Assembly (NCBI GenBank): GCA_016124585.1 | Contig: WGNL01000018.1 | Location: 1 to 64,000 of the forward strand | Origin: Bacteroidota bacterium | Lineage (GTDB): Bacteria; Bacteroidota; Bacteroidia; Chitinophagales; Saprospiraceae | Direction of reading: 5' to 3' | DNA length: 64,000 nucleotides | Part shown: positions 16,749 through 34,425 of the stretch, piece after piece | How the letters are laid out: the number at the start of each line of letters is the position of its first letter | Numbering within the stretch: the first letter of the stretch is position 1 | Notes under the pieces: generated by a model | What the model was told of the DNA's origin: nothing | What the model saw: only the letters and a program-made list of their open reading frames with translations | Database searches by the model: none | Made by a program: the position numbers and the translations under genes

Positions 16749-16838
16749 AAGGATTAGAGGATTGAATGAGAGAAGGATTGAAGGGCAAAGGGCATTAACC
16801 CTATTCAATCCTTCAATTCTTCTCTCATTCAATCCTTA
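16749..16838. repeat. Word-type intergenic inverted repeat
   Basis: The left arm (16749-16785) iterates AAGGATT/AGAGGATTGAATGAGAG. The right arm (16804-16838) holds CAATCCTTCAATTCTTCTC and TCATTCAATCCTT. It lies between ccoG and ccoH and touches the ccoG stop. Confidence 0.65.
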
Positions 16839-19767: not shown

Positions 19768-19845
19768 TTAATTGAAAATGGAGAATTGAAAATTGAAAAT
19801 GAAAACCTGATGGCAGTCCATCTTCAATTTTTAATTATTGGTTAC
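19768..19845. repeat. Word-type intergenic inverted repeat
   Basis: AATTGAAAATGGAGAATTG and two more GAAAAT words face CTTCAATTTTTAATTATTGG near the ccoNO stop. It is the weakest member of the word-type set. Confidence 0.4.
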
Positions 19846-21991: not shown

Positions 21992-22080
21992 AAACGAGTT
22001 TCAAGTTATGAGTTTCAAGTTGCGAGTTGGGCGCATTGCTGTGCTCAACTAAGTATGCTTTGCTTCCAAATGCTCCGTTT

Positions 22081-22260
22081 TCAGGAGGTGATGGGTTGTT
22101 CTTCGGAGGTTTTTTTCACGGTGGCATCATCGAAAAGTATCCTCACGGAAGGGGTGTACTCGTCTTCATACTGGCCATCCCGCACTGCCCAGAAAAAGGA
22201 AATGAGAAAGCCCAGTGCAAGCACCAAGCTGACCGCAATTAGTAGGAAGATGATTTTCAT
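22081..22260 (-). CDS. ccoS: Oxidase maturation protein CcoS
   Basis: A 59-residue single-pass protein starting at ATG 22260. It consists of a TM helix (MKIIFLLIAVSLVLALGFLISFFWAVRDGQYED) followed by the acidic DGQYED motif typical of CcoS/FixS, which is required for cofactor insertion into cbb3. An upstream in-frame ATG at 22395 would add 45 residues unlike the family and overlaps predicted regulatory sites. It is the first gene of the minus-strand cco cluster. Confidence 0.9.
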   Translation of the reverse strand: MKIIFLLIAVSLVLALGFLISFFWAVRDGQYEDEYTPSVRILFDDATVKKTSEEQPITS

Positions 22261-22351
22261 GTGAGAAGTATTTTTTGATGTTTTCAGCCCTCGAATCGGT
22301 GTTTTTCTAAAAAAAAGCCACCTGTATTCTGCTTTTATTCTGAAATCGGCT

Positions 22352-22359
22352 GCAAGGTA
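22352..22359 (-). promoter_or_regulatory. Weak -7 element for ccoS
   Basis: The minus strand reads TACCTTGC, matching TAnnTTTG at 4 of 6 fixed positions. It lies 29.5 bp from the centre of the palindrome at 22383-22394, the same spacing as other island promoters, and ~95 bp upstream of the ccoS ATG. Confidence 0.4.
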
Positions 22360-22382
22360 GAAGCACTCAAAAAGTTGGTGAT

Positions 22383-22416
22383 TGACGTTTATCACGTGGT
22401 TTAGTGACTTTTGTCA
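22383..22416. promoter_or_regulatory. Tandem CRP/FNR-type operators
   Basis: TGACGTTTATCA (22383-22394) and TGACTTTTGTCA (22405-22416), centres exactly 22 bp apart. The right site is 30.5 bp upstream of the plus-strand -7 element at 22441. The left site is 29.5 bp from the weak minus-strand element of ccoS. A single pair could therefore serve both directions. Confidence 0.7.
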
Positions 22417-22440
22417 TGGTAGGCTGGCGAATCGGTGGTT

Positions 22441-22448
22441 TATCTTTG
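22441..22448 (+). promoter_or_regulatory. -7 element (TATCTTTG) of the candidate sRNA
   Basis: A perfect TAnnTTTG match. With a start near 22454 the palindrome at 22405-22416 is centred near -43. No ORF lies between this promoter and the terminator at 22495-22540. Confidence 0.6.
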
Positions 22449-22453
22449 CCACT

Positions 22454-22540
22454 GTATTAAACAGGGTTTTTTGGTCACATAGGTTAGTTTTCGAAAACCC
22501 GTCACTTCCGATACGTCGGCGTGACGGGTTTCCTTTTTTT
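22454..22540 (+). ncRNA. Candidate ~87-nt small RNA under a CRP/FNR-type promoter
   Basis: Bounded by the promoter at 22441 and an intrinsic terminator ending at 22540. The start is estimated from the -7 element. A small 5' hairpin (CTGT-ATTAA-ACAG, 22452-22464) and the strong terminator hairpin are visible, with a U-rich single strand between. No plus-strand gene upstream needs this terminator. The next gene (22658) has its own operator and -7 element. A leader/attenuator of that gene is the main alternative. Confidence 0.5.
22495..22540 (+). terminator. Intrinsic terminator
   Basis: AAACCCGTCAC (22495-22505) pairs perfectly with GTGACGGGTTT (22521-22531). An inner CCGA/TCGG stem closes a TACG loop. 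A run of seven T follows (22534-22540). Confidence 0.85.
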
Positions 22541-22578
22541 ACCCAAAAAATACGCCGTGTAAAATCAGTTAACGGTGG

Positions 22579-22621
22579 TGACATCCGTCAATGGACAGGG
22601 CTGAGCAGGGGGCTATCTTTG
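22579..22621 (+). promoter_or_regulatory. CRP/FNR-type operator and -7 element for the 22658 gene
   Basis: TGACATCCGTCA (22579-22590) is centred 29.5 bp upstream of TATCTTTG (22614-22621). Both elements are perfect matches to their consensus. The start codon is 37 bp downstream. Confidence 0.7.
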
Positions 22622-22657
22622 AACCTGTTTTAGTCCACGATTTAAAAAAGTATAGAA

Positions 22658-23020
22658 ATGGTAGTCATGAAAATCACAGATGTCCGCCTTTTGAAGGAGG
22701 TTCAGAAGGAGTTCAGGGCGCAGTTTCCATTTTTGGAAATGCTTTTTTATAAAAGCGATAATTTACAGCCAGTTAATTCCACCTTGGCGTCAAGCCTCCA
22801 AATCAGCGACCTTCGGAACAATGGCAGCAATGGCCTGTTAATTTTGAACGGGAATATCACCTGCGCCGCCATGGAACAGACGATGGCGGAGATATTTGGC
22901 CTGACAGTCAGCGTGGCCAACCGCTGGAATGTGCCGTGCAGCCCCAGGCACCGAGGCAAGCCGCTAGGTGAACTGAACTACAAAGCCATGCACATGGCCG
23001 AAGACGTCGTTTTCGTGTAG
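22658..23020 (+). CDS. Hypothetical protein next to usp
   Basis: A 120-residue soluble protein; an internal ATG at 22667 (MKITDVRLLKEV) is an alternative start. No family is recognised. It has an N-terminal amphipathic helix (VRLLKEVQKEFRAQFPFLEMLFY) and a conserved-looking C-terminal block (MAEIFGLTVSVANRWNVPCS) with PRHRGKPLGELN after it. No signal peptide or TM segment is present. It is 44 bp upstream of a Usp gene, probably in the same transcript, and has the clearest CRP/FNR-type promoter in the window, so it likely acts in the low-oxygen/stress response. Confidence 0.7.
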   Translation: MVVMKITDVRLLKEVQKEFRAQFPFLEMLFYKSDNLQPVNSTLASSLQISDLRNNGSNGLLILNGNITCAAMEQTMAEIFGLTVSVANRWNVPCSPRHRGKPLGELNYKAMHMAEDVVFV

Positions 23021-23064
23021 CCTAAAACCACTCATTTCGAATACATCACAATCACCTTTCCATT

Positions 23065-23874
23065 ATGAAAAAAATACTCTTCCCCACCGACTTCTCCGAA
23101 ACCGCCGCCAATGCTTTCCGCTACGCCATTGAACTGGCCAAGGCCGTGGATGCCAAAATCGACGTGCTGAACGTGTACAACCTGCCCGTCATTGACGCCA
23201 CCAACCTACCCGCTGGCTATGTGGAGCAGATGTTGGAGGAAAAACGGGTGCTTGTGCAGGGCAAGCTGGAAACTTTCGCTGCTGCCGAACCCGATGCTCC
23301 GCTCGGTGAGTTGATTCCGCTCTACGGCATTTTCATCCCAGAAGAAATCAGGGATTTGGTGAAGGAGGGCCATTACGACATGGTAGTGATGGGAACCCGT
23401 GGTGAGCACAACCCCCTCGAAAAAACCTTGGGCAGCATTACCACTTACACCATGATGAATGCTGCCTGCCCCGTGCTGGCTGTACCGGAAGATGCCGCTT
23501 GGCAGGACATTGATTACACAGCTTTTGCCACCGATTTTCTACCGCACGAGCAGCAAGCCGTTGCCCAGCTCATGGAGTTTGCGAAGAAGGTTTCCTCGGA
23601 AGTTTATTTTGTACATGTGGAGACAAAGCCGAATATCGGCACGATGCAGGACTACGTCACGCTGGCGGATTACCCCTACAAATTCACCGATTTTGCCATC
23701 GTGAATAGCCCTACCGTGATGGAGGGCTTGGATAGTTTTATCAAGGAAAAGCATATTGACCTGCTGGCGCTTTACATCCCCAAGCGGCGGCTTTGGGAGC
23801 GGTTATTCCACAGCAGTTTTACGAAGAAAATGGCGTTCCACTCGAAAACGCCACTGCTGGTTTTTCATGAATAA
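23065..23874 (+). CDS. Universal stress protein, tandem UspA domains
   Basis: A 269-residue cytosolic protein. The first Usp domain (MKKILFPTDFSETAANAFRY) spans ~1-145 and ends in the nucleotide-binding signature MGTRGEHNPLEKTLGSITTY. The second domain (~150-269) is more diverged. ATP-type Usp proteins bind ATP via G-x2-G-x9-G(S/T), which is only partly retained here. It is probably co-transcribed with the 120-residue protein under the operator at 22579. A relative is encoded at 33313. Confidence 0.88.
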   Translation: MKKILFPTDFSETAANAFRYAIELAKAVDAKIDVLNVYNLPVIDATNLPAGYVEQMLEEKRVLVQGKLETFAAAEPDAPLGELIPLYGIFIPEEIRDLVKEGHYDMVVMGTRGEHNPLEKTLGSITTYTMMNAACPVLAVPEDAAWQDIDYTAFATDFLPHEQQAVAQLMEFAKKVSSEVYFVHVETKPNIGTMQDYVTLADYPYKFTDFAIVNSPTVMEGLDSFIKEKHIDLLALYIPKRRLWERLFHSSFTKKMAFHSKTPLLVFHE

Positions 23875-23880
23875 AATTGG

Positions 23881-23918
23881 GCCATTGGTCATTGTTTCTC
23901 TGCCTAATGACCAATGGC
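23881..23918. repeat. Perfect 13-bp inverted repeat
   Basis: GCCATTGGTCATT (23881-23893) pairs with AATGACCAATGGC (23906-23918). It lies between convergent usp and VIT genes and is a likely bidirectional terminator without a T-run. Confidence 0.65.
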
Positions 23919-23940
23919 TTCCAGATAATTGACGCCGCTT

Positions 23941-24627
23941 TCAGGTGAACATCCCTTCCAGCACATTCCCTGCGAAATAGGCTAGCAAAGCCGCACCGCT
24001 GCCGAGGCCAAACGTCTCCAATGCGCCCTTCCAAAGTGGTTGTTCACCAACGTAGCTTTTGAGCAACCCGATACCGATGAAAGCAAAAGCCGTCATCAGG
24101 CCAGAAGCAAAGAATAGGTCCTGATTCAGCTTCGTAAAAAAATCCATGAGGTAAATCACCATCGGGACAAGGCCTACTAAGTTGAAAGCGGCAAAAGTTA
24201 CCAGTGCTTTTGAAAATGGAGAACGGACGCCGGGAGTCATGTTTAGCTCATCCTTCATCATGGTATCTACCCAGATGTCTTTATTGGCGGTGATGGCTTT
24301 CACTACTGTCTCCAGCGTTGCTCCACGAAGTCCTTTTTTGAAAAAAATCTGTCGGATTTCCTCTCGGCCTTCTGTTGGGTTTTGTTCCACTTCAAGGTAT
24401 TCAAGCCGCCTGTATTTTTCATAGGTGTGATTTTCGGAGTTGTTGGCGAGGTAGCTCCCGACGCTCATCGAAAAGCCATCGGCGACTAAGTTTGCGAAGC
24501 CAAGGATGATGACCACCGAACTATCCAGCCCGGCCCCTGCTGCCCCAGCCACCACAGCAAAAGTGGTCACGATACCATCCATGCCGCCGTAAACAAATTC
24601 AGCAAGATAATCTTGTAGTTTCATCAT
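23941..24627 (-). CDS. VIT1/CCC1-type divalent metal transporter
   Basis: A 228-residue membrane protein starting at ATG 24627 (a TTG at 24639 is possible). The first TM block [18 protein letters not shown] and [19 protein letters not shown] match the Fe/Mn transporters VIT1/CCC1. A cytoplasmic metal-binding loop with Glu-rich helices follows ([22 protein letters not shown]), then three TM segments. It may sequester or export iron or manganese during stress. It is co-oriented with the CBS gene 72 bp upstream. Confidence 0.85.
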
Positions 24628-24698
24628 TGAGCTTGGCAATTTTCAGCCTCAAAAGTTTTGTGCGAATGCATCAGAGCCTGACTAACAACCGACCAATG

Positions 24699-25154
24699 TC
24701 AAACTGCCGAACTTAAAAGGGCTGGCTCCATGAATGCGAAGTTCAACATATCGAAGGTGGTTAAGATGCCAACCAGTTTCCGCTGGCGGTCTACCACAGG
24801 AATGGCATGGAAGAGGTTTTCCCGAAAATATCCAGCGGCCACATCTACCGAATCCTCTGGCTGAAGACTTGCCACCTGCTTTGTCATCACCTCCCCCACT
24901 AGCAGTGAGCGCAGGATGGCCTGGTTGTATGCTTGATTTTTTTCCGTTTTGAAAAGCGTGAAGCCATGTAGGGTTTTCAGGTAATCCCCCTTACTGATTA
25001 TTCCGACAACATGGCTTTCATTGTCGATGACGGGGACGTGGTGAATATTGTGGGTTGCAAACAGCTCGTCCACCTGCTCCATGGAATCATCAGGGTGCAG
25101 AAAGAATACATCACGGGTCATGATGTTAGCGATGGAAGTGGTTCTGTCAAACAT
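24699..25154 (-). CDS. CBS-pair domain protein
   Basis: A 151-residue protein consisting almost entirely of two CBS domains (IMTRDVFFLHPDDSMEQVDELF ... HVVGIISKGDYLKT and VMTKQVASLQPEDSVDVAAGYF ... LVGILTTFDMLNF). CBS pairs bind adenosyl ligands (AMP, ATP, NAD) as energy sensors. It is one of three similar proteins in the island (25215, 32782), which suggests paralogous expansion. No effector domain is attached. The gene is probably in an operon with the VIT gene. Confidence 0.88.
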   Translation of the reverse strand: MFDRTTSIANIMTRDVFFLHPDDSMEQVDELFATHNIHHVPVIDNESHVVGIISKGDYLKTLHGFTLFKTEKNQAYNQAILRSLLVGEVMTKQVASLQPEDSVDVAAGYFRENLFHAIPVVDRQRKLVGILTTFDMLNFAFMEPALLSSAV

Positions 25155-25171
25155 GATTGGTGATTTTAGAA

Positions 25172-25209
25172 GTTTGCAAATCGCTGCTCGAAATCAGCGA
25201 TTTGCAAAC
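25172..25209. repeat. Perfect 15-bp inverted repeat
   Basis: GTTTGCAAATCGCTG (25172-25186) and CAGCGATTTGCAAAC (25195-25209) with an 8-nt loop. It lies between two minus-strand CBS genes: a stabilising or terminating hairpin, or a dyad operator. Confidence 0.7.
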
Positions 25210-25214
25210 CTGTT

Positions 25215-25676
25215 TTAACCTTCTTCATAGTTCTCAAGCTCTAATTGTTCTCCGACGGGAGAAGAAAAGCTATAGGCCAGTAGGTCGTGTGCAGTGACAA
25301 TACCGACCAGTTGGCCGTCGTCCACGATGGGTAACGCATGGAATTTGTTGGCGAGGAAAATGTCCGCTGCCAGCCCAATGCTGTCGTCGGGGTTGAGCTG
25401 TAAAGGATACTTGGTCATGATATCCTCAGCCAATAGGTGTTGGAACCGGGATCTTGTTTTATCGGCCCTCGTGGCTTCCACAGACAGTACATAGGCCACC
25501 TTGAAAAAATCCTCTCGACTGATGATGCCGACCAACTCACCTCCCGTCCCAGTGACGGGCACGTGGTGGAAACTGTTGCGGGAAAAAAGTTCCCGGACTT
25601 GGCCTAGGTTAGAGCTTGGCTGCACGGTGACCGGATTCGTGGTCATAATTTCTTGTACGGTGATATTCGGGTTCAT
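25215..25676 (-). CDS. CBS-pair domain protein
   Basis: A 153-residue CBS-pair protein starting at MNPNITVQEIMTTNP (ATG 25676). The longer ORF would translate the terminator of the upstream hsp20 gene. CBS1 is at ~8-65 (NSFHHVPVTGTGGELVGIISREDF) and CBS2 at ~90-145 (NKFHALPIVDDGQLVGIVTAHDLLAY). The acidic tail (ELENYEEG) resembles that of the protein at 32782. It probably senses adenylate energy charge; its partner is unknown. It sits between hsp20 and a second CBS gene. Confidence 0.88.
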   Translation of the reverse strand: MNPNITVQEIMTTNPVTVQPSSNLGQVRELFSRNSFHHVPVTGTGGELVGIISREDFFKVAYVLSVEATRADKTRSRFQHLLAEDIMTKYPLQLNPDDSIGLAADIFLANKFHALPIVDDGQLVGIVTAHDLLAYSFSSPVGEQLELENYEEG

Positions 25677-25717
25677 TTGTAATGTATTTAAAGGTGTATG
25701 AAAAATGTGTTTGGCGT

Positions 25718-25755
25718 AAAAAAAAACCGGAAGCCACCTTGCGGCCGGCCTCCGG
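25718..25755 (-). terminator. Intrinsic terminator of hsp20
   Basis: On the minus strand a CCGGAGGCC/GGCTTCCGG stem (25727-25755, one mismatch) is followed by nine T (25718-25726). It lies 44 bp downstream of the hsp20 stop. Confidence 0.8.
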
Positions 25756-25798
25756 GATACACCTCTCACATTGAAGAATGAGTTTTTGTGCCCAGTGG

Positions 25799-26254
25799 TC
25801 AAGAAACTTTGACCACTTTGGCCGGTTCTTCTTTAGCAACCTTGACTTTTGGCACTTCAATTTTCAAAATGCCGTCCGCATAGTTTGCCTTGATATGATC
25901 TGCTTTAACATTTTCTGGTAGCCAGAACGATCGGCTGAAAGCTTGATAGTTGAATTCCTTACGTGTGTAATTTTCTTCTTTTTCCTCTTTCTCAGCCTTG
26001 GTTTCCGCACTGATGCACAGGTGTCCTTCCTTTACCTCTACTTTGAAGTCATCCTTTTTCATGCCCGGTGCAGCTACCTCAAGCTTGTAGGCTTCCTTCG
26101 TTTCTCTGACATTGACCGAGGGCGTCGTCATTTCCATTGAAGGCAACCACCTTTTGTCAAAAAAGTCGTCGTCTTTAAAAAAATTCGTAGCCCATTCCGG
26201 CATGTTCAGCATAGGAAGCAATTCGTTTCGATTTTTCCATTTGACGATTGACAT
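25799..26254 (-). CDS. Hsp20/alpha-crystallin small heat shock protein
   Basis: A 151-residue ATP-independent holdase. The alpha-crystallin domain (~48-140) starts TPSVNVRETKEAYKLEVAAPGMKKDDFKVEV and carries FSRSFWLPENVKADHIKANYADGILKIEVPK with the A-x-x-x-n-G-v-L signature. The IPV-like tail is replaced by VKVAKEEPAKVVKVS. It has two upstream CRP/FNR-type sites, so it is probably expressed in the low-oxygen/stress response rather than only by heat. Confidence 0.9.
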   Translation of the reverse strand: MSIVKWKNRNELLPMLNMPEWATNFFKDDDFFDKRWLPSMEMTTPSVNVRETKEAYKLEVAAPGMKKDDFKVEVKEGHLCISAETKAEKEEKEENYTRKEFNYQAFSRSFWLPENVKADHIKANYADGILKIEVPKVKVAKEEPAKVVKVS

Positions 26255-26498
26255 AATATACCTCCTTTTTGATTCAGGCTCTGAAAATGGGCAAACGGAC
26301 AGAACGCCAAGTTATTCAAAGCGGTCTTGGGGATAGAGTCATTCAGGATAAATGACTTAGCTGATGTCTATTCGCCCATCACCATAACCTCATTTTAAGT
26401 GCTTACAATTATGTTCCAAAGTTAGATGCGATGATGTTGTTGCTAAATGACTTCCATCAACCAACTAGCTGACTTATGTCAAATGCCTTGATTCAATC
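26255..26498. other. 244-bp spacer between hsp20 genes
   Basis: A non-coding region holding the promoter and tandem operators of the 25799 gene (separate entry). The upstream hsp20 ends at 26499. Confidence 0.5.
26417..26481 (-). promoter_or_regulatory. Promoter and tandem CRP/FNR-type operators of hsp20
   Basis: The minus strand reads TAACTTTG at 26424-26417, a perfect -7 element. TGACTTCCATCA (26448-26459) is centred exactly 29.5 bp upstream of it. A second site, TGACTTATGTCA (26470-26481), is centred exactly 22 bp further upstream. Both the spacing and the tandem distance repeat those at 22383-22448. Confidence 0.7.
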
Positions 26499-26945
26499 TC
26501 ACTCAACCTTGACATGGTGTGGCTTTTTATCTTCTGCTGTAGCTGTGCCAGAAAAACTGATTTGCAACAGGCCGTTTTCACACCTGGCCTCAATATGCTC
26601 AGCACTCAGTTCATCAGACAGCCTGAATTTGCGCTCAAATGCATCCATTGAAAACTCCTCTATGATACTTTCTGTCATCATCGTTTTGACTTTGCCTGGT
26701 TTGTTGCCCTTCACGGTCAGGTAGTTTCCTTTGATTTTGACTTCAAGTTCCTCCTTTGTGAATCCAGGTACGGAAATATCCAGCATAAATTTTTTGTCGT
26801 GTTTGGAAACATTGGCTGGCGGCATCGCATGCCAAGGGATGTCAAATGATGAGCGTCCGAGAAAGTGGCTAGAGTCAACTAGGGGGCTGTAACTATCACC
26901 CATCCAGTCGAATACATAGCTTCTAAGATTTGGTCTCCATCTCAT
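26499..26945 (-). CDS. Hsp20/alpha-crystallin small heat shock protein
   Basis: A 148-residue second small heat shock protein. The crystallin domain includes ANVSKHDKKFMLDISVPGFTKEELEVKI and the signature RKFRLSDELSAEHIEARCENGLLQISF. It ends with AEDKKPHHVKVE, like many Bacteroidota Hsp20 proteins. It is diverged from the copy at 25799, so the two may hetero-oligomerise. It has its own upstream region with degenerate CRP/FNR-type sites. Confidence 0.9.
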   Translation of the reverse strand: MRWRPNLRSYVFDWMGDSYSPLVDSSHFLGRSSFDIPWHAMPPANVSKHDKKFMLDISVPGFTKEELEVKIKGNYLTVKGNKPGKVKTMMTESIIEEFSMDAFERKFRLSDELSAEHIEARCENGLLQISFSGTATAEDKKPHHVKVE

Positions 26946-27017
26946 GACTAAAGTTTTTGAGTTTCAGCCTCCGACGCTTAGTTTTTTTTGGAAATTCCGC
27001 ACCGGATTTTTTTGCTA

Positions 27018-27104
27018 GAAACATAGTTATTTAATGCCCTAAAGCTGCGGGAATTGGATTCTGGGAGCATTAGTATCTGTCACTAGATGCATTGATTTTA
27101 GTCA
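27018..27104 (-). promoter_or_regulatory. Possible degenerate operator pair upstream of hsp20
   Basis: TGATTTTAGTCA (27093-27104) and a half-site-only copy TAGTATCTGTCA (27071-27082) are again 22 bp apart. Candidate minus-strand -7 elements are weak: CAGCTTTA (27047-27040, at 29.5 bp) and TATGTTTC (27025-27018, at 51.5 bp). Confidence 0.35.
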
Positions 27105-27123
27105 TCAAATTAATTCGAATGCG

Positions 27124-27173
27124 CTAAAAATAGCTTGCCCGCTACCCTACAAATCTGGGATAGCGGGCAAGCC
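27124..27173 (-). terminator. Intrinsic terminator of thioredoxin
   Basis: A GCTTGCCCGCTA/TAGCGGGCAAGC stem (27133-27172) with flanking CCC/GGG pairs is followed on the minus strand by ATTTTTAG (27131-27124). It lies 20 bp after the trx stop. Confidence 0.8.
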
Positions 27174-27193
27174 ATTTTGTTCCAAAAACAAAA

Positions 27194-27499
27194 CTAGGCG
27201 TGCTGCTCCAGAACGCCTTTCAGTTGTGGCCCGGATATCATGCCTACATGCCGCCAGGTTTCCTTTCCCTTTTTGAACAGGACAAAAGTGGGCACACCCT
27301 GAATACCCATGCTGCCTGCAAAAGCCTGATTCCTGTCAATATCAACTTTGACAATAGTGGCCTTTTCGCCCAATTGCTTTTTCACATCTTCTAATACAGG
27401 CGCCATCATGCGGCAGGGACCGCACCAGCTGGCTGTGAAATCAATTAGCACGGGTTTTTCACCAGCCAAAAGTTCTTTGAAACTCACTTTATTTTCCAT
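27194..27499 (-). CDS. trxA: Thioredoxin
   Basis: A 101-residue thioredoxin starting at ATG 27499 (an upstream GTG/ATG extension is not family-like). The active site is WCGPC (Cys26, Cys29), with the cis-Pro loop QGVPTFVLF. The protein reduces cytosolic disulfides. It stands inside the stress island with its own terminator downstream, and a candidate small RNA or leader upstream on the same strand. Confidence 0.9.
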   Translation of the reverse strand: MENKVSFKELLAGEKPVLIDFTASWCGPCRMMAPVLEDVKKQLGEKATIVKVDIDRNQAFAGSMGIQGVPTFVLFKKGKETWRHVGMISGPQLKGVLEQHA

Positions 27500-27589
27500 G
27501 ATTTTGATTGTTTGTAAGACATAAGTTAGCGCCAATTATGCAAATTAATTATTAGAATATCCTGATTTAATCAGCAAATAATTGGCAGT

Positions 27590-27615
27590 AAAAAAGAGCG
27601 TCAAGAAGACGCTCT
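27590..27615 (-). terminator. Intrinsic terminator
   Basis: On the minus strand AGAGCGTC pairs with GACGCTCT (27595-27615, 5-nt loop), followed by six T (27595-27590). Confidence 0.8.
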
Positions 27616-27661
27616 AACAATATTTAATCACCCGAAATATGAATCATTTCATATTAATCAC
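27590..27661 (-). ncRNA. Candidate ~70-nt small RNA upstream of trxA
   Basis: Reading on the minus strand, a start near 27661 would follow the weak promoter at 27666-27673. A first hairpin AATATGAA-ATGA-TTCATATT comes next, then an AGAGCGTC/GACGCTCT terminator hairpin with six T. No minus-strand ORF precedes it. It could instead be an attenuating leader of trxA, whose start codon is ~90 nt downstream. Confidence 0.35.
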
Positions 27662-27665
27662 ACAA

Positions 27666-27708
27666 CAAAAAAACACCCGATTTAAGCATTAGTTGGTGAC
27701 TTAACTCA
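27666..27708 (-). promoter_or_regulatory. Weak CRP/FNR-type operator with -7 element
   Basis: TGACTTAACTCA (27697-27708) has one mismatch in the right half-site. It is centred 29.5 bp upstream of the minus-strand TTTTTTTG (27673-27666), which has one mismatch to TAnnTTTG. The spacing agrees with the stronger promoters. Confidence 0.35.
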
Positions 27709-27802
27709 CTTATTCTCATGATGTTGCTCACTATTTATTATATAGTATATCGTACATTTTTGTTTTGATGAACTATGATTTTTAAACCTAAATAAAATAG
27801 TT

Positions 27803-28414
27803 ATGACACTACATGAAGAATTAATGGATATTGGCAAAGAACACCTCATCCAAATGAAAGTGCTATTGGATGAGTTGCAAGTACAGATGGCATTGGGTAA
27901 GGCCGAGGCCAAGGACATTTTTGACCGGGAAAGGAAGAACTTCCTGAATTTCGTTTCCGAAGAAAAAAGTGTTTTGCGCAAAACTGGCCAAGTTGCAAAC
28001 AGCCACCGAGCTTTGCTGATGCAAAAATTCGATGCATTTGATGCTCGACTAGCTAGGCCAATTGCCAAAAACAAGCGCCAGTACGAGCTGCGAAAACGAG
28101 AAAACCTACATGCTATCTACGAGCTGGAACTGGCCATGAAAGAAGCATATGGCGATGTAGGCATGTCACTTCAGGTAAAGCTTGATGCATTCCTTGACAA
28201 ATTGGACACTTTCCGAATCAAGTTGGCGCTGGGCGATTTTGAGACAGAAATTGAAATGGAAGCCTTGAAATCAGAATTAGTAGGTGCCGTGGGCGATATT
28301 CTGGAACGGCTGAAAAAAGAAGGTGGTGCCGAGGAAAAAATCAACGCCTTTTCCCATGAGGTTTCCAGTTCATTTGAACACATGAAGAAAGCGTTTTCCA
28401 ATTTGCTGTCTTAG
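27803..28414 (+). CDS. Helical (coiled-coil) hypothetical protein
   Basis: A 203-residue soluble, almost wholly alpha-helical protein rich in K/E/L (IQMKVLLDELQVQMALGKAEAKDIFDRERK). No signal peptide, TM segment or cysteine motif is seen. No family is recognised; the composition is like small coiled-coil stress or apolipoprotein-like proteins. It precedes the AarF kinase by 70 bp, separated by a word-type inverted repeat, and lies in the stress island, so a stress role is likely but unproven. Confidence 0.7.
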   Translation: MTLHEELMDIGKEHLIQMKVLLDELQVQMALGKAEAKDIFDRERKNFLNFVSEEKSVLRKTGQVANSHRALLMQKFDAFDARLARPIAKNKRQYELRKRENLHAIYELELAMKEAYGDVGMSLQVKLDAFLDKLDTFRIKLALGDFETEIEMEALKSELVGAVGDILERLKKEGGAEEKINAFSHEVSSSFEHMKKAFSNLLS

Positions 28415-28465
28415 TATTTGGGCATTGGGTGATTGACAAACCCCATCAATCACCCAATACCTCAA
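28414..28465. repeat. Word-type intergenic inverted repeat
   Basis: AGTATTTGGGCATTGGGTGA (from 28413) and ATTGA face CATCAATCACCCAATACCTC. It lies between two plus-strand genes. Confidence 0.6.
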
Positions 28466-28484
28466 TTTTCAAAACTCAGCACAC

Positions 28485-30167
28485 ATGGTTGCCACAAAAG
28501 CACATAAGCCCAGCCTCATCAGCCGCTATGAAAAAGTCATTGGCATAATGATCAAGTATGGTTTTGCCGACGTGGTCACCCACCCGCCTTTTAGCCGTTT
28601 TTTCCCTAAATGGAAACGATTGGTTCCGAAGCACGATGGACAACCCGTCACCGAATTTACCCGCTACGAAAGGATGAGAATGGTCTGCGAAGAACTTGGC
28701 ACTACTTTCATCAAGTTTGCACAAATTGCCAGCAACCGCCCAGACCTTTTGCCGGAGGAACTGATAGAGGAACTAGAAAAATTTCAAGATCAGGCACGGA
28801 CAGTACCTACTGAAAATATCAGAAAAACACTAGAACTGGAGCTTGGCGAAAAACTTAAAATATCATTTGAAGATATTGATTATCAACCTATTGCATCTGC
28901 TTCAATGGCACAGGTGCATCGGGCTACACTCCTAGGCGGACAGCAAGTAGTGCTCAAAGTGCAGCGCCCTGGTATTGCCGACACGGTGGCTTTGGATATC
29001 CGAATTCTTAAAAGCTTGGCTCGGCTACTGGAGCATCGCTTCCCCCAATTTGATGCGTACCAACCGATGGAACTGGTGAAAATGTTTGAAACTAGCATTC
29101 AAAAAGAGCTTGATTTTACATTGGAAGCGGCCAACATTAGGCGTTTCGGGGAGCAGTTCAAGGGGAATCCAGACATCTATATTCCAACAGTTTATCCAGA
29201 ATTTAGTACAGAAAAATTGCTTTGCATGGAGTATATCGATGGCCTGAAATGCACCAATCTGCCAGCCCTCGGTGAAATCGGCATGACGGGCCCAGAACTG
29301 GCGCTCAAGGGCATCAACCTTTATTTTGAGCAAGTATTTGACCACGGCTTTTTTCATGCCGATCCTCACCCCGGCAATATTTTCGTGCTACCTGATAAGC
29401 GGGTTTGTTTCATTGACTACGGCATGATGGGTACGGTGATGGAAGGTGACCGTGAACTGCTGGCTGACCTCTTGCTGGCCGTTCATGACCGGGATGTGGA
29501 TGGGCTGAAGACAGCGTTGCTCCGTTTTTCTTGGGATGCATCCAAGATTGACCTTGCCAGCCTGGAGTACGATATTGGTGAGTTTTTTCAAAACTATTCG
29601 AATATCGGCCTAGCAGAAATTGACTCGAATGAGGTAATGGCCGCCCTCAATTCATTGTTTTTTGATTATAAAATCAGGGTGCCTTCCAATCTGCTATTAC
29701 TCCTGAAGGCCCTCGTCATCATTGAGGGGGTTGGCCTCATGCTCGACCCAAAATACAATATCATCGAGAACATACACCCGTTTGTAGTGCGGCTTTTACG
29801 AAGAAAATATAGCCCCGCTAAACTGTCGAAAAAAATGAGCAAAACCCTTGGTGGCCTCACCAAATTGGCGGCCTCATTGCCAGAAGATATGGAGGATATT
29901 ATCGGAAAAATGAAACAGGGAAAACTGCACATTGAGTTCGAACACAAAGGCTTGGGGCCACTTGACAATGCGCTGGATGTAGCTTCAAAACGAATTTCGT
30001 TCGCTGTTGTGCTGGGATCGCTCATCCTCGGTTCATCTCTGCTCGTCATTGCCGATGTACCACCGCATATCAAAAATGTGCCTGCGCTGGGGGTATTCGG
30101 TTTTGTGATTGCAGGAGTGTTCGGTTTACGCTGGTTGGTTTCAATTTGGAAGCAGGGGAAATTTTAG
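28485..30167 (+). CDS. AarF/UbiB/ABC1 family kinase-like protein
   Basis: A 560-residue atypical kinase. The N-terminal family motif is LGTTFIKFAQIASNRPDLLPEE, in which the usual KxGQ is KFAQ. The A-rich loop ASASMAQVH, the ATP-binding lysine in VVLKVQRPG, the catalytic loop FFHADPHPGN and the metal-binding FIDYGMMG follow. Two C-terminal TM helices (VVLGSLILGSSLLVIAD, LGVFGFVIAGVFGLRWL) anchor it. Members assist ubiquinone/menaquinone biosynthesis or lipid handling; with the neighbouring cbb3 oxidase a quinone role is plausible. Confidence 0.87.
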   Translation: MVATKAHKPSLISRYEKVIGIMIKYGFADVVTHPPFSRFFPKWKRLVPKHDGQPVTEFTRYERMRMVCEELGTTFIKFAQIASNRPDLLPEELIEELEKFQDQARTVPTENIRKTLELELGEKLKISFEDIDYQPIASASMAQVHRATLLGGQQVVLKVQRPGIADTVALDIRILKSLARLLEHRFPQFDAYQPMELVKMFETSIQKELDFTLEAANIRRFGEQFKGNPDIYIPTVYPEFSTEKLLCMEYIDGLKCTNLPALGEIGMTGPELALKGINLYFEQVFDHGFFHADPHPGNIFVLPDKRVCFIDYGMMGTVMEGDRELLADLLLAVHDRDVDGLKTALLRFSWDASKIDLASLEYDIGEFFQNYSNIGLAEIDSNEVMAALNSLFFDYKIRVPSNLLLLLKALVIIEGVGLMLDPKYNIIENIHPFVVRLLRRKYSPAKLSKKMSKTLGGLTKLAASLPEDMEDIIGKMKQGKLHIEFEHKGLGPLDNALDVASKRISFAVVLGSLILGSSLLVIADVPPHIKNVPALGVFGFVIAGVFGLRWLVSIWKQGKF

Positions 30168-30212
30168 AACAGAAAAGCCTTAGCAATAAAGTATAAGAAT
30201 CGCCTAAATACA

Positions 30213-31262
30213 TCAAGTCGGCAGACCCTCTAATTTCTTTTGGTTCAAAACTCGAATAGCACCGTCTTTGATTTCAATAAGTCCATCATCCTTGAACTCG
30301 GTGAGTGTGCGAATGACACTCTCCTTCGCAGTACCTACGATGTGCGCCAAGTCTTCCCGCAGGATTTGTATATCCTGTTTTCCTTCTTTCGAATAGCGGT
30401 CGTGGAGCAGCAGCACAGCCTCAGCCACTCGCTTGCGCACGGAATTGTAGGCGAGTTGCAGCAATTGTGCCTCCTTTTCAGACACGTTGTCAGCCAGCAT
30501 TTTGATGAGGCGGCTAGCTACGTCCCGGTTAGCATAAAGCAGTTTCAGGAAGTCATCTTTTGGAATGAGACTAACAGACGTGTCTTCGAGGGCGGCTGCG
30601 GAGAAGCTGTACTGCTCGCTTTTGATGAGGGCTGTGTAGCCGATGAACTCACCAGCGTTGCGGATATTGATGATATATTCCTTGCCGATGTCATTGGTCT
30701 TGTAGATTTTGACCTGCCCCTTGCTGATGAAGTACATATAACGTGGCGTGTCACCCTCCTCGAACAGCACATCCCGTTTTTTGTACTCCTTGGTGCGCTT
30801 GTCCACGGAGAGTTTTTTCAAATCCTCATAACCTTTCGCCTCGTTGATGAAACTAATAAGGCCCTCTTCCGTGCGGTTGAACTTGCGCAAGCGCTCACTT
30901 TTTTTCAAGCGTGTTTCCACTACGGAAAGAAGTTCATCTTTGTAAAAAGGCTTCGTCACATAATCGTCGGCACCAAGGTTCATGCCCCTACGGAAATCTT
31001 CTTTTTCGGTTTTGGCAGTGAGGAAAACGAAGGGAATATCTGAGGTATCTGGTCGGTGGCTGAGGATGTTTAGTACGCCGAATCCGTCCAATTTGGGCAT
31101 CATCACGTCGCAGAGCACGAGGTCAGGGTGCTCTTTAGTGGCCAGTTCCACGCCAACGGTGCCATCTTCGGCAGCCAGCACCTGATAGCCAGATATTTCC
31201 AATATTTCCTGAAGGTTTTCACGTACCTCCAGATTGTCCTCGATGACCAGAATCTTTTTCAT
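30213..31262 (-). CDS. Response regulator with cNMP-binding and Crp-type HTH output
   Basis: A 349-residue hybrid regulator. The REC domain (1-120) has acidic residues ED (8-9), phospho-acceptor Asp52 (CDVMMP) and Lys in VTKPF. The cNMP-binding-like domain (~150-265) contains EEGDTPRYMYFISKGQVKIY and GEFIGYTALI but lacks the full cAMP RxS signature. The Crp HTH has recognition helix TAKESVIRTL; compared with E. coli CRP SRETVGR it keeps the Glu and final Arg. It is co-oriented 11 bp after the histidine kinase. It is the best candidate to bind the TGAC-N4-RTCA sites of this island. Confidence 0.9.
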   Translation of the reverse strand: MKKILVIEDNLEVRENLQEILEISGYQVLAAEDGTVGVELATKEHPDLVLCDVMMPKLDGFGVLNILSHRPDTSDIPFVFLTAKTEKEDFRRGMNLGADDYVTKPFYKDELLSVVETRLKKSERLRKFNRTEEGLISFINEAKGYEDLKKLSVDKRTKEYKKRDVLFEEGDTPRYMYFISKGQVKIYKTNDIGKEYIINIRNAGEFIGYTALIKSEQYSFSAAALEDTSVSLIPKDDFLKLLYANRDVASRLIKMLADNVSEKEAQLLQLAYNSVRKRVAEAVLLLHDRYSKEGKQDIQILREDLAHIVGTAKESVIRTLTEFKDDGLIEIKDGAIRVLNQKKLEGLPT

Positions 31263-31273
31263 AATGTCTTGAT

Positions 31274-32611
31274 TTAGCCTTGGGTGAGTGGGATATTTAT
31301 CCTAAAAACTGTGCCTTGGCTGGGTTTGCTGGTGAAAGAAATATCGCCGTCCATGAGGCCGAGATATTGTTTCACAATGTTCAAACCTAAGCCTGTTCCC
31401 TGTATATTTTCGACGTTGTTAGCCCGGAAAAACCGCTCGAACATGTGCGGCTGATCCTCTTCCGGGATGCCAATGCCTTGGTCTTCTACCTCAATGTGCA
31501 GCATTTGATCCACTACCCGCAGGCGGCAGAAAATGGGCTTCCCTGCTTCGGAATACTTGCTTGCGTTGGATACCAAATTATAAATGATGTTTTTCAAAAT
31601 CTGCTTGTCCAGTAGTACTTCCACCTCGCAGTTTTCGTGTTCCTGAATGATTTTTTGACCGGGCTTCAGCAGGCCGAGCATCTCATCCTCCACTTCATTG
31701 CAGAAATCTTGGAGCGTAAAATAGATGGCCTGTTTTTGCACCTTGTTTTCCTCTAGTTTACTGAGTGAAAGGAAATCATTGAGGATACTAGTGAGGGTTC
31801 CTACAGCGGTTTTTATCCGTTGTAAATGTTTACTTCTTTTCTCCTGATGCTCGGCGCCCCCAGTGTAGGCCTCCGCCAAATCTGCCGATGAGAGCACAGT
31901 GCTCAGCGGGGTGCGAAACTCGTGTGAAGCCATGCTCACGAAGCGGGACTTTAGCTCGTTGAGCTGTTTTTCCTTTTCAAGCGCCTTGCGCAATTCCACT
32001 TCGCTTTTGCGGAGCGCTGCCTCTGCCGCCCGGCGCTCTTCGGCTTCACGCTCCAGTTGCTGGTTCATACCAAGCAGGCGGTTCACGGCTTCCGAAAGTT
32101 CCTCGGTACGTAGGGTTACTTTCTGTTCAAGGCGCTCGTTTTGCAATTCGAGGTCTTCGTTCAATTGCCTGATTTCAGCCTCTGCTTGCTTCATGGCTGT
32201 TAGGTCTTGGATGATGCCGGTAAAAATGCGCCGGTCGTCCAACATGGTCTCGCTGACTGCTAAACGTAAGGGCATTTCACTGCCATCTTTTCGGCGTCCG
32301 ACCACTTCCCGACCAATGCCGATGATGCGAGGCTGGCGGGTTTCCAAGTAGCGGCTGATGTAACCGTCGTGGTTTTGTCTATCTGGTGTTGACATGAGCA
32401 TCGAGATATTGTTGCCCAAAACTTCTGAAGTCTTGTAGCCGAAAAGTCGCTCCGCTGCAGGGTTCATCCGCTCAACGATGCCCTGGTCGTTGATGGTGAA
32501 AATGGCGTCAATGGCTGTATTGAAGATCGCTTCCAAGTACGCCGCCATATCAGCCGTGCTTTGATTTGGCAAAATATCCTTCAATGTGGTGGTTTTTTCG
32601 ACAATAACCAT
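31274..32611 (-). CDS. PAS-domain sensor histidine kinase
   Basis: A 445-residue soluble kinase without TM segments. A PAS domain (~22-140, AAYLEAIFNTAIDAIFTINDQG ... ILGIIQDLTAM-like PAC) is FixL-like in sequence style (GIVERMNPAAERLFGYKTSEVLG ... MPLRLAVSE). A coiled coil (~140-225) leads to HisKA with SHEFRTPL and an ATPase domain with N box (NLVSNASKYS), DQGIGIPEED and GTGLGLNIVKQ. The cytosolic PAS suggests haem/oxygen or redox sensing. It is in an operon with the REC-CRP regulator. Confidence 0.9.
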   Translation of the reverse strand: MVIVEKTTTLKDILPNQSTADMAAYLEAIFNTAIDAIFTINDQGIVERMNPAAERLFGYKTSEVLGNNISMLMSTPDRQNHDGYISRYLETRQPRIIGIGREVVGRRKDGSEMPLRLAVSETMLDDRRIFTGIIQDLTAMKQAEAEIRQLNEDLELQNERLEQKVTLRTEELSEAVNRLLGMNQQLEREAEERRAAEAALRKSEVELRKALEKEKQLNELKSRFVSMASHEFRTPLSTVLSSADLAEAYTGGAEHQEKRSKHLQRIKTAVGTLTSILNDFLSLSKLEENKVQKQAIYFTLQDFCNEVEDEMLGLLKPGQKIIQEHENCEVEVLLDKQILKNIIYNLVSNASKYSEAGKPIFCRLRVVDQMLHIEVEDQGIGIPEEDQPHMFERFFRANNVENIQGTGLGLNIVKQYLGLMDGDISFTSKPSQGTVFRINIPLTQG

Positions 32612-32707
32612 TGATTTTCAACGAGTTATCACCTACCAGACTGTTAAACGCTGCAAAGTACCGAAGAAGCGCCGTCCGTCCAAATGCGGTTTATCACAAA
32701 ATTTGGG

Positions 32708-32750
32708 TGACAAAAGTCATCGCGCTCCGTTGCCACTCACCGGAACTTTG
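32708..32750 (+). promoter_or_regulatory. CRP/FNR-type operator and -7 element for the CBS-usp operon
   Basis: TGACAAAAGTCA (32708-32719), a perfect palindromic consensus, is centred 29.5 bp upstream of GAACTTTG (32743-32750), which has one mismatch to TAnnTTTG. The CBS start is 31 bp downstream. It lies in the divergent spacer with the kinase gene, so autoregulation is possible. Confidence 0.65.
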
Positions 32751-32781
32751 CCCCGAAAGATAACCAATCACAGGGCTCACA

Positions 32782-33297
32782 ATGAAATTGAATTTTGAAG
32801 AAAACTCGAAACCATTGCGGAGCAAAAAAAAGAATGAAGTTATGAACGTCTTAGCACCAATCTCAACGATCATGACCGCCAAGCTGCACACCGTCAACCC
32901 AGAGGACAGTTTGATGATGGTCAAAGAAATTTTTGACAACCACAAAATCCACCACATCCCCGTTGTGCGGTACAAGCACATTGAGGGAATTGTGAGCAAA
33001 ACGGACTTCCTACACTTTCTGCGGGCGTTCAAGAGCAACGAGATGGACAAGTTCATCGACGAAACCCGTCTTCGCTCCTGGAAGGCTGAGGAAATCATGA
33101 CCAAGGGCCTTGCCAAAGTGGAAAGCACTGACCCCATCCGCACGGCATTGGAGGTGTTTCTGGTGAACAGATTCCACGCCATACCCGTTGTAGACAATGA
33201 TGAATTAGTGGGTATCGTGACCACTTTCGACATTATTCGGGCCATCGAAGATGAACCAATTCCGCTCGAAAATTATAAGAAAGCAAAGGCCGTTTAA
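32782..33297 (+). CDS. CBS-pair domain protein
   Basis: A 171-residue CBS-pair protein; an internal ATG at 32842 (MNVLAPISTIMTAKL) is an equally good start and matches the length of the paralogues. CBS1 (~24-85) contains HKIHHIPVVRYKHIEGIVSKTDFLHF. CBS2 (~105-165) contains NRFHAIPVVDNDELVGIVTTFDIIRA. The acidic tail is ENYKKAKAV. It is the third CBS paralogue in the island, in an operon with usp 15 bp downstream and under the operator at 32708. Confidence 0.87.
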   Translation: MKLNFEENSKPLRSKKKNEVMNVLAPISTIMTAKLHTVNPEDSLMMVKEIFDNHKIHHIPVVRYKHIEGIVSKTDFLHFLRAFKSNEMDKFIDETRLRSWKAEEIMTKGLAKVESTDPIRTALEVFLVNRFHAIPVVDNDELVGIVTTFDIIRAIEDEPIPLENYKKAKAV

Positions 33298-33312
33298 ACC
33301 CATTCAGTTCGT

Positions 33313-34425
33313 ATGACCACACTTCAAGTCCTTGGTATTGACGGGAGCATCCAGACCCGACAGCTCCGAGCCAATCTAGTAGAGGCGCTCGCATCGCTGG
33401 GTATGAAGGCATTCGTGGAAAACGTGTCGGGGATGGAGCAACTGATGAAGTACCGCATCAATGGCATACCTGCTTTGGTGGTGGACGGTACAGTGGTGCT
33501 GCAAAAAATAGTGCCACCTACCGAGGACTTGAAGATTTTGCTTAATGCCTTTGCAGAAGGGGCTTTCAAACAATTTGCTATGAAAAAGATTCTTGTTCCC
33601 ACCGACTTTTCGAAAGCTGCCAAAGATGCTTTCCGTTTTGCCCTCGACCTCGCTGAACTGCAAGAAGGCAAGGTTAAGACCGTACATGTTTACCACCCAG
33701 AATTCGATCCGGAGAGCAATTGGCTGAACAATAGTTTTATGGATGGCATGGGCTATGCCAAAGAACGGCTTGACAATTTCGTAAAAGATGAGTTGAACGC
33801 CGCAGCAGGAACCGGGGATGTTGCCACGGCCGTAGCGGTAGAAAAGGAGGTAATAACAGGATTTGCCGTAGATGAAATTTTGGAATGTTCCCGAAGAAAG
33901 GATGTTGAACTGATGGTGATGGGTAGTACTGGCGAGCGGGGCTTTTTGGAAAAACTGTTTGGCAGTGTGTCCACCAATGTCACTCAACGCGCTGAATGCC
34001 CGGTGATGCTGGTACCAGAAGGCGTAAAGTTCCGGGGCTTCAAGCACATCATGTACGCCAGCAATTATGAGGCTGCCGAGCAGCCAACTCTTCACAAATT
34101 GTTGGACGTGGCCAATTCATTTCATTCTGACATCCATTTCGTGCATGTGTCTGAGGAGGGGGATTCCAAAAACTATGATGAAATCGAGAGCCGATTGTTC
34201 AATGTTCTTTTTAAAGGAAACGAACCTACGTTCGCCTTCAACATGGCCAATATCGAAGGTCATTCAGTAGTGGATGGCCTGAACGATTACGCTATCAAGC
34301 ACAACATCGACCTCGTGGTGATGGTATCTCCTCACCGCAATTTCTGGGAACAACTCTTTCACAAAAGCGTGACAAAAGCGATGGTGCTGAACACCAAGCT
34401 TCCAATCTTGGTACTGCACGGGTGA
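33313..34425 (+). CDS. Thioredoxin_3-like domain fused to tandem UspA domains
   Basis: A 370-residue fusion. Residues 1-80 (TTLQVLGIDGSIQTRQLRANLVEAL ... INGIPALVVDGTVVLQ) match the Thioredoxin_3 redox-disulfide fold, but the usual CxxC is replaced by GIDGSIQ, so it is probably not redox-active. Residues ~90-240 form a complete Usp domain (MKKILVPTDFSKAAKDAF ... MVMGSTGERGFLEKLFGSVS with G-x2-G-x9-G-S). The rest is a second Usp domain. Met90 (33580) could be an internal start, but the frame is open throughout. It is co-transcribed with the CBS gene. Confidence 0.85.
   Translation: MTTLQVLGIDGSIQTRQLRANLVEALASLGMKAFVENVSGMEQLMKYRINGIPALVVDGTVVLQKIVPPTEDLKILLNAFAEGAFKQFAMKKILVPTDFSKAAKDAFRFALDLAELQEGKVKTVHVYHPEFDPESNWLNNSFMDGMGYAKERLDNFVKDELNAAAGTGDVATAVAVEKEVITGFAVDEILECSRRKDVELMVMGSTGERGFLEKLFGSVSTNVTQRAECPVMLVPEGVKFRGFKHIMYASNYEAAEQPTLHKLLDVANSFHSDIHFVHVSEEGDSKNYDEIESRLFNVLFKGNEPTFAFNMANIEGHSVVDGLNDYAIKHNIDLVVMVSPHRNFWEQLFHKSVTKAMVLNTKLPILVLHG

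Follow-up and report, generated by a model that had tools for sequence, protein, structure and literature searches.

A 22-bp paired CRP/FNR-type operator in the Bacteroidia and its probable receiver-CRP reader in a Saprospiraceae genome

Palindromes of one type stand in front of respiration and stress genes in a 64,000-nucleotide stretch of a 6.63 Mb Bacteroidota genome whose nearest named relatives are Saprospiraceae (assembly GCA_016124585.1, contig WGNL01000018.1, positions 1 to 64,000; the window in what follows). An initial annotation of the interval 22383-32750 took these TGAC-N4-RTCA dyads for the sites of one CRP/FNR-type activator that defines a local regulon with fixed promoter spacing. 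Are the dyads an operator, how far does the arrangement extend, and which protein reads it? Our results point with good confidence to the operator of a respiration and stress regulon that is widespread in the class, read here by a fusion of a receiver domain and a CRP-type module encoded at 30213-31262. The sites, their spacing and conservation, the linkage and co-occurrence with the regulator, and the architecture of that protein were observed directly.

All six strong dyads are present at the positions given for them (22383, 22405, 22579, 26448, 26470 and 32708), and the window holds 15 strand-matches of TGACNNNNRTCA versus a mean of 3.56 in 100 shuffles (largest 13). The dyad at 22579-22590 (TGACATCCGTCA, plus strand) is followed 23 bp downstream by the -7 box TATCTTTG (22614-22621, plus), with 29.5 bp from its centre to the first base of the box. 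The same gap of 23 bp separates the tandem dyads at 26448-26481 (TGACTTCCATCA and TGACTTATGTCA, minus strand, 22 bp apart) from TAACTTTG at 26417-26424 (minus), and the dyad at 32708-32719 (TGACAAAAGTCA, plus) from GAACTTTG at 32743-32750 (plus). The last dyad lies between the kinase-regulator genes (minus) and the CBS-usp genes (plus). For the dyad at 22405-22416 (TGACTTTTGTCA, no strand assigned) the gap to another TATCTTTG at 22441-22448 (plus) is 24 bp and the centre distance 30.5 bp. The distances in the initial annotation, 29.5 bp at 22579, 26448 and 32708 and 30.5 bp at 22405, were thus reproduced. Of the TAnnTTTG boxes that it gave, the one at 32708 carries five of the six consensus letters.

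The dyad at 22383-22394 (TGACGTTTATCA, no strand assigned) lies 22 bp from that at 22405. This pair had been assigned to ccoS, which is right for one of its two sides. ccoS, on the minus strand, faces the 22383 dyad through a possible -7 box, TACCTTGC, at 22352-22359 (minus, gap 23), which puts this dyad at -41.5 of the ccoS promoter. The plus-strand promoter, with 22405 as the proximal and 22383 as the distal site, leads instead into a non-coding stretch that ends in a terminator. The ccoS box scores only 4/6 against TAnnTTTG. It fits the TAnnTTGY promoter type described in a passage on Flavobacterium psychrophilum (PMC9723704) and is a variant at unchanged dyad distance.

In 300 Markov simulations, a TGAYN4RTCA dyad with a box of at least 5/6 letters at 22-24 bp occurred 0.15 times on average (maximum 2), versus four times in the window, and the mean number of dyad pairs at 22-23 bp was 0, versus two in the window. 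Weaker sites had also been listed. Those at 27071 and 27093 have no box of at least 5/6 letters at 22-24 bp. The imperfect dyad at 27697-27708 (TGACTTAACTCA, minus) has TTTTTTTG at a gap of 23 bp, and site and box together (27673-27708) face a thioredoxin-like gene at 27194-27535.

The arrangement was then searched in the whole genome and in a class set of 295 genomes, with the reversed pattern as control. Matches to the fusion protein were taken at E<=1e-40 and called strong below 1e-60. In this genome, TGACNNNNRTCA-N22-25-TANNTTTG gave six matches, two of them the window's own, versus none for the control. With one mismatch allowed and a gap of 23 bp there were 11 matches versus 1, and one of these sites (L017) falls within an open reading frame (ORF). 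Across the class, a dyad with a box at 22-24 bp was found at 275 sites versus 36 for the control; the counts were 192 versus 21 in the genomes with a strong fusion match (n=143) and 76 versus 13 in those without any fusion match (n=139). A sample of 48 fusion-bearing genomes (every third one) was searched with any dyad-to-box distance between 10 and 40 bp allowed. Of the 100 matches, 37 had a distance of 23 bp and nine each one of 22 or 24 bp; the remaining 45 were scattered over the other 28 distances. A first wide-gap spectrum was discarded in favour of this sample, as most of its 45 genomes had been chosen for their site counts. The enrichment at this spacing, on which the initial annotation had staked its claim, is therefore present in the genome and in the class, and the spacing lies far beyond chance, as had been argued. 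The shared operator code stands; it is not merely local and recurs in the class. According to a passage of PMC9723704, positions -12 to -5 are taken up by the sigma-A box TAnnTTTG in F. psychrophilum. With the box at these positions, the dyad centre comes to -41.5, the class II position.

The dyads are often paired. Among 52 loose-dyad neighbours within 60 bp (29 from 40 fusion neighbourhoods and 23 from 49 loci, of which some are closely related to one another), 37 were exactly 22 bp apart and eight were 23 bp apart; 20 control stretches (400 kb) contained none. In the class set the loose 22-bp pair occurred 385 times, in 139 of the 295 genomes, and its reversed control a single time. A box of at least 5/6 letters at 22-24 bp accompanied 32 of the 37 pairs in at least one direction. 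These make up 34 site-orientations, 33 of them at 23 bp. Of 20 pairs away from the fusion gene, taken from among the matches listed, 15 had a box of at least 5/6 letters in at least one direction; by eye, the ORFs downstream include ccoNO-like (3), ATPase-like (1) and Usp-like (2) starts. One place (G273:C104:100536-100652) departs from this arrangement and carries a short array in which the dyad recurs at intervals of about 21 bp.

The class set has fusion matches in 156 of 295 genomes. Of these, 143 are strong, our own genome included, and the strong ones among those listed mostly extend over almost the full protein; the remaining 13 are weak, and six of them, when searched again, proved to be stand-alone proteins without a receiver. 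Neighbourhoods of 10.7-20 kb around the fusion gene (784 kb in total) were taken from 40 strong genomes chosen for family spread and contig size. Here 256 tetramer palindromes were scanned with 13 spacers each, and TGAC-N4-GTCA had the highest z of all combinations with an expectation above 3 (29 found versus 5.1 expected). In a pairwise comparison within 18 genomes, 17 dyads lay near the regulator and two in control stretches of the same genomes (expected 2.1 and 2.2). Fourteen of the 29 dyads have a box of at least 5/6 letters at a gap of 22-25 bp, and in 13 of the 14 the gap is 23 bp.

The regulator and the pair also occur together. The mean number of 22-bp pairs per genome was 3.48 with both the fusion and an FNR relative (n=46), 1.59 with the fusion only (n=97), 0.87 with FNR only (n=69) and 0.13 with neither (n=83). 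To limit phylogenetic bias, the comparison was repeated within the 15 families that hold both types, where a pair is present in 40 of 63 fusion genomes and in 5 of 31 genomes lacking both regulators (permutation p 1.5e-4). Our genome encodes seven HTH_Crp_2 proteins, and the six other than the fusion have, by eye, different recognition helices. A classical iron-sulphur (Fe-S) FNR was ruled out as the local regulator, as no FNR match was found in this genome at E<=1e-48. Both results make the fusion the best candidate reader, and on sequence grounds it is the likely regulator of the window sites. The proposal that one shared regulator serves ccoS, the 22658-usp unit, hsp20 and CBS-usp is well supported by the sequence evidence, with its activating role as the predicted part.

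The proposed regulator (30213-31262, minus strand) consists, by Pfam, of a receiver (residues 4-115), a cNMP-binding fold (158-242) and an HTH_Crp_2 domain (278-345) with the helix GTAKESVIRTLTEF. PF00027, PF13545 and PF00325 are above their cut-offs, which places it in the CRP/FNR superfamily, and the PF00072 receiver match places it among the response regulators. The initial annotation's CRP/FNR-type regulator is therefore right as to the superfamily module; the protein is not a classical CRP or FNR but a receiver-CRP fusion encoded within the interval itself. Loose residue patterns for the phospho-acceptor Asp, the Lys and the acidic pocket were positive in 36 of 39 relatives. The whole protein has one Cys and no Cys-x2-Cys, so that the cysteine cluster of FNR proper is absent. 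The cAMP-binding motif of the CRP beta-roll seems absent by eye. Among the best 60 of 268 matched sequences, no PDB chain spans both the receiver and the CRP part. Several genomes (G015, G037, G045, G128 and others) have three or four fusion matches each, which suggests parallel two-component pathways with one operator type.

A PAS histidine kinase gene (31274-32611, minus; Pfam) adjoins the regulator gene. A kinase-like ORF was found in 38 of the 40 fusion neighbourhoods, in 36 of them as the immediate neighbour of the fusion gene and in its orientation (one is truncated by the contig end). The kinase aligns with FixL chains (E 2e-31). In FixL, a His in one column of the PAS domain is the haem ligand; the FixL-like PAS domain here has Arg in that column, and haem-based O2 sensing as in FixL proper was rejected for this genome. 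The column holds K in 18, R in nine, Q in two, S in one and His in none of the 30 adjacent kinases with this PAS signature (from 49 loci). In a wider kinase set His occurs in 4 of 31 alignable proteins, and only that of L110 has a FixL-like context. The partner kinases vary among genomes, and those of L091, L102 and L113 begin receiver-like by eye, as if the sensor module were freely exchanged.

A stand-alone relative of the fusion was found in many genomes. In ten loci (L221-L230) a protein without a receiver shares 38-41% identity with the CRP part of the fusion, and in nine of the ten, those whose ORF was read out, its helix resembles REDIANIVGTATETxIRLLSEF. FNR relatives occur in 115 of the 295 class genomes at E<=1e-48, and their cysteines were checked in the L221-L230 set and in 27 sister ORFs from 30 loci. 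Cys-x2-Cys-x8-Cys is present in 25 of these 27, as expected of an iron-sulphur FNR, versus 0 of 67 fusions. The pair occurs in 41 genomes that lack a strong fusion match, and an FNR-like relative with a very similar recognition helix is present in 33 of these. It thus appears that two kinds of sensor use one operator. A tree was built from 39 fusions, 27 FNRs and the other six proteins of the CRP family in our genome. In it, fusions and FNRs are each confined to one side of a branch (supports 71, which is low, and 94), and both together stand apart from the six (97% SH-aLRT). The tree was made by a quick method with long outgroup branches and its root was not inferred; its shape fits one fusion event.

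The sites of the window are also conserved in relatives. TGACAAAAGTCA with an AACTTTG box at a gap of 23 bp lies between the kinase and CBS genes in seven of the eight loci whose regulator is at least 80% identical; it was not found in the eighth, L146. In an alignment of the window with these seven loci, which were picked for having this site, invariance exceeds the searched letters (GGTGACAAAAGTCATCG; AACTTTGCC, then CGAAAGA), and much of the surrounding sequence varies. In more distant loci the box at this position is mostly missing. The counterpart of 26448/26470, a 22-bp pair with a box at a gap of 23 bp, is kept in L141, where by eye it stands before an hsp20-like start, and in the congener G508. 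G508 also has a counterpart of the 22383 dyad with TACCTTGC at a gap of 23 bp and one of the 22579 dyad (TGACATTCATCA) with TAATTTTG at 23 bp. It seems to be the same genome as L147, so the two are not independent.

On one side the 22383/22405 pair faces the cbb3 operon and on the other a candidate small RNA of about 88 nt (22453-22540, plus), whose start was set from the box. The promoter box at 22441 points into a stretch that ends, by folding, in a strong hairpin and a T run ahead of 22658. In G508, 50 consecutive nucleotides of the candidate are identical within an alignment of 73% identity, the hairpin stays strong despite its altered sequence, and the counterpart is preceded by two dyads 23 bp apart with a TACATTTG box at a gap of 24 bp. 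An RNA of the FnrS type would be an independent transcript with a terminator under an FNR-type promoter; of the candidate, the promoter, the hairpin and the conservation in one congener were seen. The strict composite pattern was found in only 3 of the 386 genomes of an order set, which implies that the candidate is young or diverges fast. Rfam gave no match above the gathering score in 22000-33400, and none of three sub-threshold matches lies at the candidate. A blastn search of 22000-23100 against 49 loci of the Saprospiraceae set found only the ccoS part, in four loci; the RNA was not seen, and few of these loci reach that gene. L179 (the same sequence as G660) and L180 have another terminator-ended stretch with the common word GTTTTCGAA behind a tandem operator. 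Similar words follow the operator in L041, L161, L163 and L167, where they do not seem RNA-gene-like.

ccoS (22081-22260, minus; TIGR00847 above cut-off) is the first gene of a presumed cbb3 operon with a ccoNO fusion (19835-21991; NF011053 and TIGR00780 above cut-offs), ccoP (18518-19474; TIGR00782 match below cut-off), ccoG (16836-18326; TIGR02745 above cut-off) and a heavy-metal P-type ATPase (13690-16284; Pfam), all on the minus strand. The ATPase is CcoI-like by position only (TIGR01494 above cut-off, heavy-metal models below theirs). On the plus strand, a small protein gene (22658-23020) of unassigned function, with no Pfam or NCBIfam match at E<=0.001, is followed by a universal stress protein gene (23065-23874; PF00582). 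By eye, ORFs resembling this small gene stand behind tandem sites in L087 and L092, and L107 has a match of 27% identity near the fusion; the 22658-23020 protein is perhaps a conserved member of the regulon. hsp20 (25799-26254, minus; PF00011) is followed by two CBS-domain genes, at 25215-25802 and 24699-25154 (PF00571), and by the gene at 23941-24639. Beyond the 32708 site stand genes for a CBS-domain protein (32782-33297, plus; PF00571) and a protein with thioredoxin-fold and Usp domains (33313-34425, plus; PF13192, PF00582).

Further single sites elsewhere in the genome stand a short way ahead of a DUF983 gene and a rhodanese gene, about 340 bp ahead of feoB and about 420 bp ahead of a peroxiredoxin gene (distances by eye). 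In the 40 fusion neighbourhoods, ccoNO was found in 13, ccoP in 14, ccoG in 15 and two types of Usp match in 16 and 11; tandem sites lie upstream of ccoNO in five and also precede P-type ATPase, Usp, CBS, hemerythrin-type and kinase/regulator genes (several named by eye). A gene downstream of the L005 site, first guessed to be a nitrite reductase, has an alpha-amylase fold by Pfam, and the site may be chance or a metabolic target. In L002 (G000:C19:71384-71427, minus), a near-tandem operator with 23 bp spacing and a gap of 24 bp stands before a small membrane-like ORF starting MKLFELNFAQMLIRYYVMMMVIIIAG, which is followed by a terminator-like hairpin and could encode a small regulated protein.

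These observations suggest the following mechanism. The PAS kinase (31274-32611) would respond to a low-oxygen or redox cue and phosphorylate the receiver of the fusion. The CRP-type part would then bind as a dimer to TGAY-N4-RTCA centred at -41.5 and activate like a class II CRP/FNR protein. Many promoters have a further dimer site 22 bp farther upstream, at about -63.5, which is roughly two helical turns away and on the same face; it should make the response stronger or sharper. The symmetry of the pair allows it to serve promoters on both sides, such as those of the cbb3 operon and the RNA candidate. The predicted targets in the window are ccoS-NO-P-G with the ATPase, the RNA, 22658-usp, hsp20-CBS-CBS, CBS-usp and possibly the kinase-regulator genes; the DUF983, rhodanese, feoB and peroxiredoxin genes are candidates elsewhere. 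The sister protein, with its FNR-type cysteines, appears to act on this operator in many other Bacteroidia; the input would then have been exchanged and the output code kept. In its widest form, to which we give equal weight for and against, this model holds that the Bacteroidia share an old promoter code of paired dyads at -41.5/-63.5, under which the sensor was exchanged between an Fe-S FNR, which would sense oxygen directly, in some lineages and a receiver-fused, Cys-free sister with varying PAS kinases in others, and which controls cbb3 respiration, stress proteins, sometimes the genes of its own kinase and regulator, and a small RNA like FnrS.

Several results weigh against this reading. 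Binding, activation, transcription start sites, phosphorylation, the signal, the direction of control and the function of the RNA are predictions from the DNA and protein sequences. The kinase PAS domain lacks the FixL haem histidine. The strict dyad is present in only 20 of the 40 fusion neighbourhoods; the pattern used detects no 22-bp pair in 45 of the 143 genomes that carry the fusion, and it detects one in 8 of the 83 that carry neither regulator. Strict dyad pairs at free spacing were found in 24 places versus 20 for the reversed control, of which seven and five lay in single genomes. For strict pairs the numbers alone say little, and only the clustering at 22 bp speaks for pairing: 14 of the 24 are at exactly this distance, all in genomes with a strong or weak fusion match. 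Autoregulation of the kinase-regulator genes here is weakly supported, as the nearest conserved kinase box (by eye in the alignment) puts the 32708 dyad near -65. The dyad-box, gap-spectrum, pair, per-genome and family counts rest on hand-typed tables. In the cysteine comparison, the 27 sister ORFs had been filtered by helix and Cys patterns, and the 67 fusions had been selected from 89 loci for their receiver and helix patterns.

The code is also not specific to the fusion, as shown by the 76 single sites (control 13) in genomes without it and by the pairs of FNR-only genomes; the assignment in our genome thus rests on the absence of FNR and the comparison of helices. This leaves room for a real operator bound by another of the six CRP/FNR-family proteins of this genome, with the fusion merely linked to the cbb3 region. 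We consider this unlikely, because the helices of these six differ by eye, they fall outside the fusion and FNR group in the quick tree, none of them reaches the FNR cut-off, and in other genomes the dyads cluster round the fusion gene. The fusion could also use the dyads as repressor or roadblock sites. CRP/FNR proteins can repress, and a position at -41.5 is alone no proof of activation. This seems quite improbable to us, given how tightly the -41.5 geometry is kept over many sites and that low oxygen usually induces targets like cbb3 oxidase. Such induction of cbb3 is reported for F. psychrophilum in a passage of PMC9723704. AT-rich intergenic DNA makes TGA and TCA words common, and the strict free-spacing pairs barely exceed their control. 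A likeness due to chance or promoter composition is nevertheless very hard to credit beside the reversed controls of 36 against 275 and 1 against 385 and the sharp peaks at a gap of 23 bp and a pair spacing of 22 bp. An activating operator read by the receiver-CRP fusion is the explanation that we prefer.

The proposed system resembles known ones in part. With the [4Fe-4S] regulator FNR it shares the CRP fold, the TGA-N6-TCA dyad, the class II position and targets like cbb3 oxidase and FeoB. Unlike FNR, the fusion has no cysteine motif and carries a receiver, and its sites are often 22-bp tandems. It seems unusual in having a signalling-relay domain where related regulators have an oxygen-sensing Fe-S part. 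In the FixL-FixJ-FixK system of rhizobia, a FixL-like PAS kinase, a receiver and a CRP/FNR output also act on cbb3 oxidase targets. Here, in contrast, the receiver and the FixK-like output form one protein, so that a FixJ-to-fixK transcription step would not be needed, and the kinase lacks the haem-ligand His. The RNA candidate recalls FnrS of enterobacteria, a small RNA behind an FNR-type promoter, from which it differs in having no accepted Rfam match and a narrow distribution. HcpR of delta-proteobacteria has the same dyad core, TTGACnnnnGTCAA, with a regulon centred on hcp, and the HcpR2 branch, including Bacteroides, has another motif, GTAACnnnnGTTAC (both from a passage of PMC1274295). 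A wastewater-community study, in the passage concerned, hypothesised that a Saprospiraceae CRP/FNR homolog, not necessarily kin of the fusion, is MalR-like and carbon-sensing (PMC8510549). A search of open-licence literature, with subscription papers outside its scope, found no receiver-CRP regulon or 22-bp tandem operator for Bacteroidota.

In conclusion, the apparent low-oxygen control in a widespread bacterial class can now be approached with a testable operator code, a likely regulator and a model of sensor exchange. The 22-bp pair implies an activation complex of two dimers, which we did not find described for CRP/FNR proteins in the literature consulted, and it raises the question why paired sites stay at this distance. 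The RNA of this locus is a candidate for a low-oxygen small RNA from outside the enterobacteria. The FNR and fusion pair may give a handle on how a transcription factor swaps its input without changing its sites.

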